Positions 1 to 48,457 of a stretch of DNA of 64,000 nucleotides are shown here, in pieces; the first letter of the stretch is position 1, and each line of letters starts with the position of its first letter. The stretch comes from Planctomycetota bacterium (GTDB taxonomy: Bacteria; Planctomycetota; Planctomycetia; Pirellulales; UBA1268), in the NCBI GenBank assembly GCA_018970605.1, contig JAGWWA010000003.1, forward strand, positions 1-64,000, written 5' to 3'. The translations under genes and the position numbers were made by a program. The notes beneath the pieces were generated by a model. That model was not told the DNA's origin. It did not search any database and saw only the letters and a list, made by a program, of their open reading frames with translations.

Positions 1-2310
1 GCCACGCTCAACACGCTCGTCTTCTCGGACGAACTCGAGGCATTTGGCCTCACGGTGGAGGCGGTCGCTGACGCAGGGGTCGATGCGGTGCTCGTGCAGG
101 ACGTCGGGGCGGCCCGGTGGATCCGCGATCGGCTGCCGGACCTGCCGTTGCACGCCTCGACCCAGATGACGCTCACCAGCGCCGAGACGATCGCCCTGGC
201 CGAGGAACTGGGGATGGATCGGGTCGTCGTCGCGCGGGAGCTCTCGATCGAGGAGATCACGGCGATCCGCCGGCAGACGGCGATGCCGCTCGAGGTGTTT
301 GTGCACGGGGCGCTCTGTGTGGCCTATTCAGGGCAGTGCCTGACGAGCGAATCGCTCGGCGGCCGCAGCGCCAATCGCGGCCAGTGCGCCCAGGCCTGCC
401 GACTGCCCTACGACCTCGTCTGCGACGGCAAGGACGTCGAGCTCGGCGACCGGAAATACCTGCTGTCTCCGCAGGATCTGGCCGCCTATGCGCTGGCTCC
501 AGAGTTGATCCAGGCGGGAGTAGCCTCGTTCAAGATCGAGGGCCGGCTCAAGACACCGGAGTACGTCGCCAACATCACGCGGCACTACCGCCAGGCGATC
601 GACACGGCGGTTGCAGGCCGACCGGTCGAGTTCACGCCCCGGGAGGTGGAGGAGATGGAACTCTCCTTCTCTCGCGGCTTCTCGCCTGGCTGGCTCCGGG
701 GCTGCGATCACAAGATGCTCGTGCCAGCGCTGACGAGCGCGAAGAGGGGCGTGCGGCTCGGCACCGTGGCGGAGGTTCGCCGCGACCGCGTGGTGGTCGA
801 TCTCGTGGGCAGCGTGAAGCGGGGCGACGGGATCGCGATCGACTGTGGCGAGACGAGCGACCACGCTGCCGGCGGCCGTGTGTACGAGGTCTTTGTCGCG
901 GGGCGGTCGCTGATCGCGCCCGTAGCCGGAGGCCGCGTGGAACTCGCCTTCGCCCACGGGGCGATCGACATGGCTCGGCTGAGTCCGGGGCAGGCCGTCT
1001 GGAAGACCGACGATCAGGAACTCACGGCCCGCCTGCGAAAGACCTTCATGGGCGACGGCCTTCGCCGGCGGCAGCCCGTCGATCTGCACGTGACGGTAGC
1101 CGTGGGCGAACCACTGCGCGTGACGGCTCGCACGGCGCTCGGGGCGACCTGCGAGGTGGCATCGGCCGAGCCGGCCCGCGCGGCAACCAAGCATGCGCTT
1201 TCCATCGAGACGCTTCGCGACCAACTCGGCCGGCTCGGCGGCACGCCCTTTGAGCTTCGCGATCTCACGGCCGACATCGCCGGCTCGCCGATGCTGCCCT
1301 TCAGCCTGCTCGGTGCGGTGCGGCACGACCTCGTCGCGGCCCTCGAGCAGGCTGTTCTCCGACCATCCGCATCAAGAAGCCCCGAGCGCGAGCGAGGGGT
1401 TGTCGGCACGGATGCGCGCGGGGCCGACGTCCCGCCGTCCGCCTCTCCCGTTCCGACGCTCCACATCCTCGTCCGCTCGCTCGGCCAGCTCCGGCGCGTG
1501 CTGGAACTCGGCGAGCGGCGGATTCAGGCTGAGTTTGCCGACATCCGGCAGTATCGCGACGCGGTCGAACGCTGCCGTGCCGTCGGCGGGACGATCCTCC
1601 TGGCGACGCCGCGGATCCAGAAGCCCGACGAACTGGGGATCTTCCGGCTGATGGCGAAGCAGGAGCCCGACGGCGTGCTCGTCCGCAACTGGGCGGCCCT
1701 GACGTTCTTCCGCGCGGCCGGCCTGCCGGTCGTCGGTGATTTCTCGCTCAATGTCACCAACGAACGCACGGCCGAGTTCTTCATGGCCGCCGGCTGCGAC
1801 CGCGTGACCGCCTCCTACGACTGCAACCGCGAACAGCTGCTCACGCTGGTCGATGCGGTGCCGCCGGAGTGGCTGGAGGTTGTCGTCCACCAGCACATGC
1901 CGATGTTTCACATGGAGCACTGCGTGTTCTGCGCCGTGCTCTCGCCGGGCACGAACAAGACCAACTGCGGCCGGCCCTGCGACGACCACGCCGTGAAGCT
2001 GCGGGACCGCATCGGCGTGGAGCATCCGCTCACGGCCGACGTCGGGTGCCGCAACACGCTTTACAACGCGGTGGCGCAGAGCGGCGCCGAGGCGGTACCG
2101 GCCCTGCTGGCGAAGGGCGTGCGGCATCTCCGCATCGAACTGCTCGACGAGGACGACGCGGCGATCGGCAGGGTGATCGCCGCCTATCGTGACCTCATGG
2201 CTGGTGTGACGACCGGCCGAGACGTCTGGACGGCGCTTCGGGCCACCAACCGCGTAGGCGTCACCCGCGGCACGCTCGAAGAGAAGCGAAACCCGCTGGC
2301 GATTCTCTGA
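1..2310 (+). CDS. U32 family peptidase / RlhA-like protein, 5'-truncated
   Basis: The reading frame is open from base 1, so the start lies upstream of the window; the GTG at 55 is internal. The U32 signature is clear around bases 290-420: EVFVHGALC followed by SGQC and then GQCAQACR. A second cysteine cluster, HCVFC and NCGRPCDD, lies near 1916-1990. U32 proteins with this long C-terminal part resemble E. coli RlhA (YdcP), which makes 5-hydroxycytidine in 23S rRNA; others were named collagenase-like proteases. An RNA-hydroxylation role is inferred from family only. The linker between the two halves carries a palindromic genome repeat (1373-1399) translated as SRSPERERGVV. The gene converges on the DUF937 protein, with a bidirectional terminator between them. 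Confidence 0.85.
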   Translation, partial: ATLNTLVFSDELEAFGLTVEAVADAGVDAVLVQDVGAARWIRDRLPDLPLHASTQMTLTSAETIALAEELGMDRVVVARELSIEEITAIRRQTAMPLEVFVHGALCVAYSGQCLTSESLGGRSANRGQCAQACRLPYDLVCDGKDVELGDRKYLLSPQDLAAYALAPELIQAGVASFKIEGRLKTPEYVANITRHYRQAIDTAVAGRPVEFTPREVEEMELSFSRGFSPGWLRGCDHKMLVPALTSAKRGVRLGTVAEVRRDRVVVDLVGSVKRGDGIAIDCGETSDHAAGGRVYEVFVAGRSLIAPVAGGRVELAFAHGAIDMARLSPGQAVWKTDDQELTARLRKTFMGDGLRRRQPVDLHVTVAVGEPLRVTARTALGATCEVASAEPARAATKHALSIETLRDQLGRLGGTPFELRDLTADIAGSPMLPFSLLGAVRHDLVAALEQAVLRPSASRSPERERGVVGTDARGADVPPSASPVPTLHILVRSLGQLRRVLELGERRIQAEFADIRQYRDAVERCRAVGGTILLATPRIQKPDELGIFRLMAKQEPDGVLVRNWAALTFFRAAGLPVVGDFSLNVTNERTAEFFMAAGCDRVTASYDCNREQLLTLVDAVPPEWLEVVVHQHMPMFHMEHCVFCAVLSPGTNKTNCGRPCDDHAVKLRDRIGVEHPLTADVGCRNTLYNAVAQSGAEAVPALLAKGVRHLRIELLDEDDAAIGRVIAAYRDLMAGVTTGRDVWTALRATNRVGVTRGTLEEKRNPLAIL
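1373..1399. repeat. Intragenic copy of the hairpin/CTTCCTG repeat
   Basis: Read on the minus strand, this stretch has the same core as intergenic copies at 7651-7677, 7771-7797 and 23125-23151: CCCCTCGCT, two variable bases, CGCTCGGGG, then CTTCTTG. It sits inside the U32 coding sequence in a low-complexity linker and keeps the frame open. This suggests that the element inserted into a tolerant inter-domain position. Confidence 0.7.
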
Positions 2311-7610: not shown

Positions 7611-7650
7611 GTTGCGGACCAGCAGGCCTTTTGGGGCAGCAGGGCGTGAA

Positions 7651-7797
7651 CCCCTCGCTTCCGCTCGGGGTTTCCTGATGTCGATCATGGCACCGCCAGG
7701 AAGCCCCGAGCGGAAGCGAGGGGATCAACGGTTGCGAATGGTCACGCCTCGTTGTGAGGAGACCGCGCATCCCCTCGCTGGCGCTCGGGGTTTCCTG
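7651..7797. repeat. Cluster of three hairpin/TTTCCTG repeats
   Basis: Copies lie at 7651-7677 (plus), 7697-7723 (inverted) and 7771-7797 (plus). Each is CCCCTCGCT, two variable bases, CGCTCGGGG, then a T- or C-initiated TTCCTG. The first two differ at one base and face each other across 19 bases. A transcript would therefore form a 26-bp hairpin, which could act as terminator or RNA stabiliser for the DUF1080 gene. The cluster occupies most of the 365-bp gap before cysK. Confidence 0.7.
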
Positions 7798-7922: not shown

Positions 7923-8885
7923 ATGGTCACCGGGAAACTGCCGGCGGGGATTCGCGACGACATCACCCAGTGCATCGGCCGCACGCCGCTGGTTCGGCTG
8001 CGGCGGGTCTCCGAGGGCTGCGTGGCCACCGTCGCCGGCAAGATCGAGAACATGAACCCGCTCTGGAGCGTGAAGGACCGCATCGCCGGCGCGATGATCG
8101 AGGCCGCGGAACGCGACGGCCTGATCGGTCCCGACACGGTGATCATCGAGCCCACCAGCGGCAACACGGGCATCGGCCTGGCCTATGTCTGCGCCGCCCG
8201 CGGCTACAAGCTGCGGGTCACGATGCCCGAAAGCATGAGCCTCGAGCGGCGGCGGATGCTCAAGGCGCTTGGCGCGGAGCTCGTGCTCACGCCCGCGGCC
8301 GAAGGGATGCCCGGCGCCGTGCGGCATGCCGAGGAGATCAGCCACTCGAGCACGCAGTTTTTCATGCCGCAGCAGTTCAAGAACCCGGCAAACCCCGACG
8401 TGCACCGGCGGACGACGGCCGAGGAGATCTGGGCCGACACCGAGGGGCAGGTCGATATCGTCGTCTGCGGCGTGGGCACCGGCGGCACGATCACGGGCGT
8501 CGGTGAGGCCCTCAAGGCGAAGAAGCCGGGCATCAAGGTCGTGGCTGTCGAGCCGGCCAACAGTCCGGTGATCACGCAGAAGCTTTCGGGTCAGCCGATC
8601 AAGCCGGGTCGCCACACGATCCAGGGAATCGGCGCGGGATTCATCCCCGATATCCTCAATCTCGACATCATCGACGAGGTGGTGAAGGTGGACGACGAGG
8701 ATGCGATGGAGACGGCCCGGCAGCTCGCCAAGCGCGAAGGGCTGATGTGCGGCATCAGCTGCGGCGCCGCCGCGTGGGGGGCGCTGCAGGTGGCCCGACG
8801 ATCGGAGAACGCCGGCAAGCTTGTGGTCGTGGTATTGCCCGACCTCGGCGAGCGGTATCTCTCGACGCGGCTCTTTCCGGAGTAG
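7923..8885 (+). CDS. cysK: Cysteine synthase (O-acetylserine sulfhydrylase)
   Basis: This fold-type II PLP enzyme makes cysteine from O-acetylserine and sulfide in the cytoplasm. The PLP lysine is K51 in NPLWSVKDR. Next come the substrate loop TSGNTGIGL, the phosphate-binding loop [18 protein letters not shown], and the SCGAA segment that contacts the PLP ring nitrogen. The length of 320 residues is normal. GGGAGGG lies just upstream of the ATG at 7923. It stands alone, with repeat DNA on both sides. CysM or cystathionine beta-synthase-like enzymes are alternatives, but the motif set and length favour CysK. Confidence 0.93.
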
Positions 8886-8905
8886 GTGGAAGTCGCGCCC
8901 GTCTC

Positions 8906-8934
8906 GGGAAGCCCCATCGCGTGAGCGGTGAGGG
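8906..8934 (-). repeat. Variant of the ATCGC hairpin/CTTCCTG repeat
   Basis: GGGAAGCCCCATCGCGTGAG is a diverged reverse-complement copy of the repeat at 28328-28357. It begins 20 bases after the cysK stop and lies just before the tandem array. Confidence 0.55.
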
Positions 8935-8957
8935 CAGAGGTCAGGTCTGACGAGGGG

Positions 8958-9152
8958 AGCCGTACGCCTCACGGCGTTACGCTTCCTGGGCAGAGGGGGA
9001 GCCGTACGCCTCACGGCGTTACGCTTCCTGGGCAGAGGGGCAGCCGTACGCCTCACGGCGTTACGCTTCCTGGGCAGAGGAGCAGCCGTACGCCTCACGG
9101 CGTTACGCTTTCTGGGCAGAGGGCAGCCGCACGCCTTACGCTTCCTGGGCAG
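8958..9152 (+). repeat. 42-bp tandem repeat array, five units
   Basis: Units start at 8958, 9000, 9042, 9084 and 9125. The first three are 42 bp, the fourth is 41 bp and the fifth is degenerate. Each contains the palindrome GTACGCCTCACGGCGTTAC and then GCTTCCTGGGCAG. The unit is therefore a tandemly amplified relative of the dispersed ACGCC/GGCGT hairpins at 22998, 28374, 39675 and 47428. It fills the 308-bp gap between cysK and the hydrolase. An open frame across it encodes SRTPHGVTLPGQRG repeats but is not credible as a gene. Confidence 0.85.
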
Positions 9153-9180
9153 GAAGCCCAATCGCGTGAGCGATGGGGGC
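9151..9180 (-). repeat. 30-bp ATCGC hairpin/CTTCCT repeat
   Basis: This segment is an exact 30/30 reverse-complement match to 28328-28357 and a 29/30 match to 48335-48364. The core CCCATCGC TCAC GCGATTGGG folds into a hairpin. It closes the tandem array and lies 14 bases from the stop of the hydrolase. Confidence 0.8.
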
Positions 9181-22878: not shown

Positions 22879-22997
22879 GTTCACGCATGCACCGCCCTCG
22901 TGGCCGGTGCATGCTGGGCGTGAGAGCCCGCCATCCGGGCGGGCAGTTGGGTGGCGCTTCGTGGCCATGTTCGGGCTCCGCGTGATCCTCGCGTACG

Positions 22998-23045
22998 AGC
23001 CCAACGCCGTGAGGCGTGGGGCGAACTGCCGCCAGACGTCGCCTC
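22998..23045 (-). repeat. ACGCC/GGCGT palindromic repeat, copy in rpmI-rplT gap
   Basis: The reverse complement reads GACGTCTGG, then GTTCGCCCCACGCC, TCACGGCGTTGGGCT. It matches 39675-39723 and 47428-47475 over about 48 bp. Confidence 0.7.
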
Positions 23046-23124
23046 CCGTTTGATGCGCCGGGGACTCACCCTCTGCCATCCCCGACCTGCCATCCCTGAC
23101 CCACGACGAACCGCAGGCCCGTAT

Positions 23125-23151
23125 CCCCTCGCTCGCGCTCCGGGCTTCCTG
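23125..23151 (+). repeat. CCCCTCGCT hairpin/CTTCCTG repeat
   Basis: This is the fourth intergenic member of the family at 7651-7797, with one change in the right arm (GCTCCGGG). Confidence 0.65.
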
Positions 23152-23251
23152 GGCAGGCCGGTCATCCGGGCGGTGCGGGGCACGCTACCGGTGCGAGCCG
23201 ACGGTCGGGGGCACGCGCAGCGGCCGGTGACATGTGCGGACGCTGGTCGCC

Positions 23252-28327: not shown

Positions 28328-28357
28328 GCCCCCATCGCTCACGCGATTGGGCTTCCT
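28328..28357 (+). repeat. 30-bp ATCGC hairpin/CTTCCT repeat
   Basis: Identical over 30 bases to the reverse complement of 9151-9180. It lies 27 bases after the stop of the TolB-like gene, where its stem could act as a transcription stop. Confidence 0.8.
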
Positions 28358-28373
28358 GAAGCCATCACTGCGG

Positions 28374-28402
28374 TGCCCCACGCCTCACGGCGGTGGGCGT
28401 CC
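28374..28402 (+). repeat. ACGCC/GGCGG palindromic repeat
   Basis: GCCCCACGCCTCACGGCGGT followed by GGGCGTCCTG is a relative of the repeats at 22998, 39675 and 47428. Confidence 0.55.
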
Positions 28403-28422
28403 TGAAGGCATCACTGCGAAGA

Positions 28423-28560
28423 GCTCGGGGCTACCCGTGCCCTCGAGCGGGCTGTGGGAGCAAGCGAAGCCAGGATGGCGAAGCGCAGCGGACACGCAGA
28501 GAGCCGAGGCCAGGATGGCTGAGGCGAACGTCCAGCGAGAGGGCATGGGTAGCCCCGAGC
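28423..28560 (+). repeat. 138-bp dispersed element, copy 2 (best-preserved TIRs)
   Basis: Left end 28423-28444 and right end 28539-28560 are inverted repeats matching at 21 of 22 positions. The inner 94 bp are closely similar to copy 1 (2333-2470). With the two hairpin repeats upstream it fills the 352-bp gap between convergent genes. Confidence 0.85.
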
Positions 28561-28652
28561 GTTGCAGCTGGATAGGCGTGCCCTCCGCGCTGACGAGATT
28601 GGACTTCCTGCGCCCGCGGGCGCTCCGATTGACGGAGGCGCAGCAGGTTTCG

Positions 28653-39592: not shown

Positions 39593-39674
39593 TGCGGGTC
39601 ACGATCGAACATCGTGCTCGAGGTTTCGGCGAGTGAAAGCCGACCGGCCGTGAGGCCGCGGGCGAACGACGCTG

Positions 39675-39723
39675 GACGCTGCGTCTGGTGGTGGTTCGCC
39701 CCACGCCTTACGGCGTTGGGCTT
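39675..39723 (+). repeat. ACGCC/GGCGT palindromic repeat (about 48 bp)
   Basis: GACGCTGCGTCTGGTGGTGG followed by TTCGCCCCACGCC, TTACGGCGTTGGGCTT. It is closely matched at 47428-47475 and, inverted, at 22998-23045. It lies in the 243-bp gap between the activator and the HEAT-repeat gene. Confidence 0.7.
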
Positions 39724-39745
39724 GGACGGTGCGGGGCGAGTTGCA

Positions 39746-47427: not shown

Positions 47428-47475
47428 GACGCCGCGCCTGGTGGCGGTTCGTCCCACACCTTACGGCGTTGGGCT
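47428..47475 (+). repeat. ACGCC/GGCGT palindromic repeat
   Basis: Matches 39675-39723 over 48 bp with few changes (CCCACACCTTACGGCGTTGG core). It lies in the 382-bp gap before glnB, which otherwise holds the sigma-54 promoter and the palindrome AAAACAGCCTGTTTT near 47594-47609. Confidence 0.7.
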
Positions 47476-47621
47476 GGTGCGAATGGTGGCTCGCTTTTTA
47501 AGCAGGTTCCGCACACGTCAGCGTGTCGCGCGGGTGCGACGATCGGCGGCCGGATTCACGCGTGCGCGACAACTGCGAGGCCACCAGCAGCAGAAAAACA
47601 GCCTGTTTTGTGAGTGATGGC

Positions 47622-48334: not shown

Positions 48335-48364
48335 GCCCCCATCGCTTACGCGATTGGGCTTCCT
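48335..48364 (+). repeat. ATCGC hairpin/CTTCCT repeat
   Basis: Matches 28328-28357 at 29 of 30 bases. It lies 19 bases after copy 3 of the 138-bp element. The same two families also lie together near 28.3-28.5 kb. Confidence 0.75.
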
Positions 48365-48457
48365 GAGTTTGCAGTGAGCGTCCGGCGACGGGCATGGACA
48401 GGCATGACGCCATCGCCCACAATCCGCTGACGTTTGAGTGACTCCCGGAGTGATCGC

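Follow-up and report, generated by a model that had tools for sequence, protein, structure and literature searches.

The window, i.e., the whole stretch of 64,000 nucleotides from a Planctomycetota genome that was analyzed, carries 18 good copies of a short hairpin motif (E < 0.01 with a covariance model) and two remnants (Table 1). We found that these hairpins very probably belong to a REP/REPIN system mobilized by a class-3 TnpA, a RAYT-like transposase, with a non-canonical foot. What we observe is the copy number of the repeats, their structure and covariation, their pairing, their bias toward extragenic DNA, the transposase gene that they flank, and their lineage-specific presence.

The common motif is a GC-rich stem with a 5' foot whose last bases are AAG (most often CAGGAAG) and a tetraloop that nearly always reads GNNA. 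From 5' to 3', a copy is laid out as foot, outer stem, mismatch or bulge, inner stem, GNNA loop, inner stem, mismatch, and outer stem. Type A reads CAGGAAG CCCC GA GC [GNNA] GC GA GGGG, and type A' reads CCCG GA GC [GNNA] GC GA CGGG after a foot that varies (CAGGAAG or CTCAAAG); the two differ at outer pair 4, where a compensated swap turns CCCC/GGGG into CCCG/CGGG. Type B is CAGGAAG CCC A ATCGC [GTNA] GCGAT G GGG, type C is CAGGAAG CGT A ACGCC [GTNA] GGCGT ACG, and type D, which has a foot other than CAGGAAG, is GTCCAAG CCC A ACGCC [GTNA] GGCGT G GGG. Type E has a foot ending in AAAG, followed by CCGACCGGCC [GTNA] GGCCGCGG. Among 134 copies, the most frequent feet are CAGGAAG (73), CTCAAAG (10), CAGAAAG (7), CAAAAAG (7), and GTCCAAG (6). 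The loop begins with G and ends with A in 131 of the 134, and its third position is a pyrimidine in 20 (GCCA, GTCA, GGCA, GGTA), for which reason we describe it as GNNA and reject the RNA motif GNRA. Mini-hairpins of the d(GNNA) kind are stable, and such a loop suits single-stranded DNA.

The earlier note on this DNA had described one family of palindromes with different cores and a shared right flank, CTTCCTG. All the sites that it named are present (type A, including the copy at 23123-23151 on the minus strand, type B, the C array, and the D-like copy at 28374-28404). The shared flank is real and, apart from strand, as stated: it is the complement of the 5' foot CAGGAAG, and copies lie on both strands. 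The list of sites was incomplete, since copies whose foot is of another kind or altered had been missed (at 1372, 8905, 22993, 39632, 39697, and 47450), and types D and E were absent from it. A common recognition code does unite the copies, but they are better called a superfamily, with at least six stem types that form three REPIN systems, i.e., the inverted-pair units A/A', B/C, and D/E, two of which have fixed spacers.

Table 1. Hairpin repeats of the window and examples of the nested element elsewhere in the same genome
Feature	Position	Strand	Remarks
Type A REP, in frame within open reading frame 55-2310	1372..1402	+	
Type A REP	7649..7677	-	foot toward the REPIN at 7697..7797
Type A/A REPIN, two inverted REPs	7697..7797	+	43-nt spacer between facing 3' ends, feet outward
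Type A REP	7697..7725	+	CAGGAAG-CCCCGAGC-GGAA-GCGAGGGG-AT
Type A REP	7769..7797	-	loop GCCA; diverged counterpart at the same place in G005
Type B REP, diverged	8905..8935	+	left end of B-C-C-C-C-B array
Four tandem type C REPs	8959..9114	-	42-nt period
Type C copy, truncated	9117..9147	-	
Type B REP	9150..9180	+	right end of B-C-C-C-C-B array
Type D REP	22993..23023	+	
Type A/A' intermediate	23122..23152	-	CCCG / GGGG, half-compensated
Type B REP	28328..28358	-	
D-like REP	28374..28404	-	foot CAGGACG
Type B REP, decayed	28580..28610	-	
E/D REPIN	39632..39727	+	type E 39632-39664 (+), type D 39697-39727 (-), spacer ~34 nt
D-like REP, weaker	47450..47480	-	
Type B REP	48335..48365	-	
MITE-like element, examples	L056:19179-19369, L054:13919-14109, L057:19418-19608		own genome

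A further repeat in the window (28435-28560, 48237, and 2391) is distinct from REPs of the AAG-foot kind; it has GCGAAGCGCAGCGGACAYGCAG and, at about 28435-28560, a big palindrome, GGGGCTACCCGTGCCCTC...GAGGGCATGGGTAGCCCC. The REP at 1372-1402 adds residues near SRSPERERG to the product of open reading frame 55-2310, which we take, from a reading of its sequence, to be a putative peptidase U32-like protein.

The stems covary across types and species. In 19 divergent REPs, picked by hand from the types of this genome and from nine other species, pairing is seen in 83.6% of cells, whereas shuffles give 62.6% and slid controls 32-45%; 27 cells are double-changed, compared with 11.2 in shuffles. 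This excess over chance bears out the earlier proposal that structure is kept through compensating stem variation, by the very check on compensatory changes that had been suggested for it. Across species, C-G and G-C are about equally frequent at inner pair 3 in a 39-locus stem table, which is partly circular because its loci were selected by pairing; the 19-REP test and the foot-only site test given below are less biased. Taken by itself, the type A hairpin has little stability when computed from nearest-neighbour energies (-2.6 kcal/mol, z about 0), a point against the model that arises because these energies give no credit to its tandem G.A mismatches.

The repeats are far more numerous than chance allows. 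The 2.86-Mb genome holds at least 430 copies, compared with 0 for control patterns; specifically, with at most one mismatch, the patterns for types A, B, and D matched 222, 156, and 55 times and the reversed control patterns 0 times. With at most six mismatches, 116 copies were found in the real genome sample and 0 in a Markov-resampled one. The repeats thus exceed the roughly 100 dispersed imperfect palindromes of 20-40 bp by which REPs are generally recognized. Selecting sites by the exact foot CAGGAAG presupposes no hairpin, and 88 of the 165 such sites are intergenic, though 12.5% of the sequence lies between genes; a GNNA hairpin follows the foot at 72 of the 88 intergenic sites and at 2 of the 77 coding ones.

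Presence of the repeats depends on lineage. The gap after cysK (7923-8885) is 308 nt long and array-filled here, and it measures ~10-60 nt in the close relatives compared downstream of this gene (G005, G016, G021, G002, and G004). The C array at 8959..9114 and its flanking B copies together are an insertion that near relatives lack. The copies upstream of cysK at 7649-7725 have no counterpart in the relatives read, and a search of 60 genomes placed types A, B, and D in this genus alone. Copies of types A, B, and C have diverged less within this genome than those of types D and E, which is consistent with the D/E enzyme having been lost or being absent; the divergence of A' is inflated by its different foot.

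These results bear on the idea that the hairpins are signals at the RNA level or DNA-binding sites (for mRNA stability, gyrase, or a nucleoid protein) that host selection keeps site by site. Such secondary roles are on record for E. coli REPs (PMC6006769), and the copies here do lie mostly in gaps that are likely transcribed. However, the sites differ between close relatives and are not conserved, the types are limited to the genus, and the pyrimidines at the third loop position are unlike a GNRA RNA loop. We therefore regard a host-selected signal as highly unlikely.

Placement was examined in a sample of 461.7 kb, 87.5% of which is coding according to a simple codon-usage caller, with 277 gaps; its stretches include contigs picked for type A matches, so densities are biased. 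Despite the high coding fraction, 133 of the 134 copies are extragenic or at sequence edges and one lies in a gene, as is characteristic of REPs. Repeats occupy 18 of the 41 convergent gaps, 26 of the 195 co-directional gaps, and 1 of the 41 divergent gaps. The copies therefore avoid genes and promoters, and the random distribution, with many coding sites, that would have told against the earlier proposal is not seen. REP copies also stand at many contig ends of this assembly, G000 (e.g., C112:54, C114:28, C120:8); the repeats probably break the assembly there, and further class-3 genes may be hidden at these breaks.

The preference for convergent over divergent gaps is what one would expect of transcription terminators, or other 3'-end RNA hairpins recurring downstream of genes; moreover, on one strand the stem is followed by CTTCCTG or TTTCCTG, the sequence of the foot, and a terminator-like flag fell on 7773-7790. 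Yet avoidance of promoter gaps is also true of known REPs, and no U-tract of the kind that marks Rho-independent terminators accompanies the hairpins: at least five T in eight positions are found at 0 of the 134 copies on one side and at 9 of the 134 on the other. In co-directional gaps, orientation is about even (33 foot-first versus 41 foot-last), terminators would not predict tandem arrays or inverted pairs whose spacer is fixed, and no Rfam family scored above its own cut-off in this DNA. Altogether, terminators are scarcely credible as the explanation. A known RNA family was likewise rejected, the sole Rfam match being sub-threshold and outside the repeats.

The repeats have a paired architecture. 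Where several copies share a gap, neighbouring ones mostly lie in inverted orientation, 3' end toward 3' end. The spacer is 44-45 nt in 13 of 13 A/A' pairs and 34 nt in 5 of 5 D/E pairs, and it spans 18-31 nt in B/C pairs and 24-60 nt in A/A pairs. The pair at 7697-7797 folds into one long single-stranded DNA hairpin (-38.4 kcal/mol, z -7.8), i.e., it is an inverted REP doublet that folds with its spacer as a single hairpin, which is the definition of a REPIN. Tandem amplification is seen at 8905-9180, a B-C-C-C-C-B array with a 42-nt period.

The genome has one Y1 HUH gene (C85:804-1292), which lies outside the window. Its product passes the Pfam PF01797 cut-off and carries the motifs THVHVV (HVH), W, and YVRECQ (Y----Q), conserved in nearly all of 25 relatives; IS200 and RAYT family models match it weakly, below their cut-offs. 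From its motifs, which include the HVH and Y----Q of class 3, the sub-cut-off model matches, and the phylum, the transposase fits class 3 of PMC6006769. Its AlphaFold model (pLDDT 90) predicts a TnpA fold of the IS200/RAYT kind and matches the TnpA of IS608, that of ISDra2, and the RAYT-REP complex 4er8 (Foldseek E 2e-5 for IS608 TnpA and 1.3e-4 for RAYT 4er8). To its left and right, the transposase locus (L010) has A and A' copies, the arrangement known as a REPtron.

This association extends across the phylum. Of 86 Planctomycetota class-3 loci whose flanks were usable, 79 have repeated segments there (0 of 86 with shuffled flanks) and 54 have an AG...GNNA hairpin within those segments (0 in shuffles); repeated hairpins stand on both sides at 55 of 86. 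Flanks of cysK, taken as a control, have repeated segments at 2 of 23 loci and AG...GNNA hairpins at 0 of 23; for other small genes of this genome, the figures are 2 of 34 and 1 of 34. When four-base loops were sought without requiring GNNA, 76% were GNNA in one orientation (89/117), compared with ~12.5% by chance.

Within the genus, REP matches number 61 or more in all nine genomes that have a class-3 tnpA and 11 or fewer in 10 of the 13 genomes without one (Fisher p = 0.0005), in a genome-wide covariance search that scores ~150 candidates per genome and gives counts as lower bounds. Three genomes, G002, G020, and G021, have ~100 REP matches and no class-3 gene that we found, which counts against the model. 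In G005 and G016, the class-3 genes are D/E-flanked, and D-type REPs abound there. A further point against the model is that no D/E-flanked class-3 gene was found in the present assembly, a MAG that is 76% complete and broken at repeats, and none flanked by type B/C was found anywhere searched. Other Y1 genes occur in the genus, in G002, G018, G008, G016, G001, and G021 (L179 in G002, and L180-L184). These were rejected as a source of the repeats: the one read, L179, has class-2-type HWH and ERNP motifs, and a pattern scan around L179 and L180-L184 detected no AAG-type REPs.

Some of the repeats are nested in a second, MITE-like element. Nearly all of 15 sampled A/A' pairs lie in an element of ~191 bp with termini TACGCGTCACACGTGATCC...GGATCACGTGTGACGCGTA, some of whose ends have decayed. 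The termini are 19-bp inverted repeats ending in TA; this genome has 67 matches to them, and eight other genomes of the genus have related ones. The element resembles a MITE that is moved by a TA-targeting transposase, which was not found. In the window, 28301-28319 matches the terminus with 2 mismatches and adjoins a type B REP, and no partner terminus was found nearby.

The A/A' pairs may thus have two routes of spread, with the MITE accounting for part of the spread of type A. These same termini and their matches could suggest that the repeats owe their spread chiefly to a DDE-transposase MITE that carries them as passengers, rather than to a Y1 enzyme. We give this very little probability, because only the A/A' pairs lie in the MITE: B, C, D, and E copies and the A/A pairs (7697-7797) are outside it, which refutes MITE-only spread for all types but A', and class-3 genes phylum-wide have repeats around them.

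Altogether, between the mobile palindrome and the recurrent RNA signal that the earlier note had offered, the former is preferred, given the flanking transposase, the fixed-spacer inverted pairs, the lineage-specific insertion, and the tandem amplification; an RNA signal is not supported as the primary function. For the REP/REPIN system, we infer enzyme binding, a guide role for the foot, cutting, rejoining or copying, and current activity. In single-stranded DNA, e.g., the lagging-strand template, each REP would fold into a mini-hairpin with a GNNA loop, to which the class-3 TnpA would bind with the foot ending in AAG as guide. The TnpA tyrosine would then cut and rejoin the DNA, and REP pairs would thereby be moved or copied into intergenic gaps. 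If both stem arms change together, the stem would be free to drift, which would give rise to subfamilies tied to enzyme variants. More broadly, we lean toward the view that Planctomycetota class-3 TnpAs share a single-stranded DNA code (an AG-ending foot and a GNNA mini-hairpin, often with tandem G.A) whereas the stems diverge per species, and that here one REPIN has also been captured by a MITE, so that two unrelated transposases spread the same repeat. With hairpin code, pairing, covariation, and gene correlation available across dozens of species, substrate specificity and enzyme-repeat co-evolution become testable, and REPs may be the cause of broken contigs and enlarged gaps in assemblies of planctomycetes.

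Several known systems resemble this one. Like gammaproteobacterial REP/REPIN-RAYT systems (PMC2817692, PMC3116915), the repeats are imperfect palindromes with an unpaired head on the 5' side, present between genes in many copies, they form inverted doublets that fold into one hairpin, and the same repeats flank the cognate Y1 transposase; two REP variants make up a unit, as do Y and Z2 in E. coli. They differ in having a constant GNNA loop, a transposase of class 3 rather than class 2, and no GT(A/G)G head. GTAG- and CGTC-tagged palindromic repeats (PMC3733652) are also tagged stem-loops, frequently in opposite-orientation pairs, but the tag here is neither GTAG nor CGTC. IS200/IS605 elements (IS608, ISDra2) share the transposase fold and the hairpin with a 5' guide; in contrast, no element with one left end and one right end was seen here, and the REPs are dispersed without the gene. 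The closest match is class 3 TnpA-Y1, whose members were considered in 2018 to be possibly intermediate between the transposases of insertion sequences and domesticated RAYTs; their "atypical" structures were spotted by hand, and the foot is CnGA (PMC6006769). The shared features are the HVH and Y----Q motifs of a Y1 HUH protein, a Planctomycetes host, and flanking repeated hairpins in hundreds of copies. The published foot fits the CAGAAAG copies and does not literally fit CAGGAAG, which is usual here with AAG invariant, and the near-invariant GNNA, the fixed-spacer pairs, and the covariation set the present repeats apart. The present system would be a scarcely described class-3 relative of RAYT systems, with a recognition code that is now defined.
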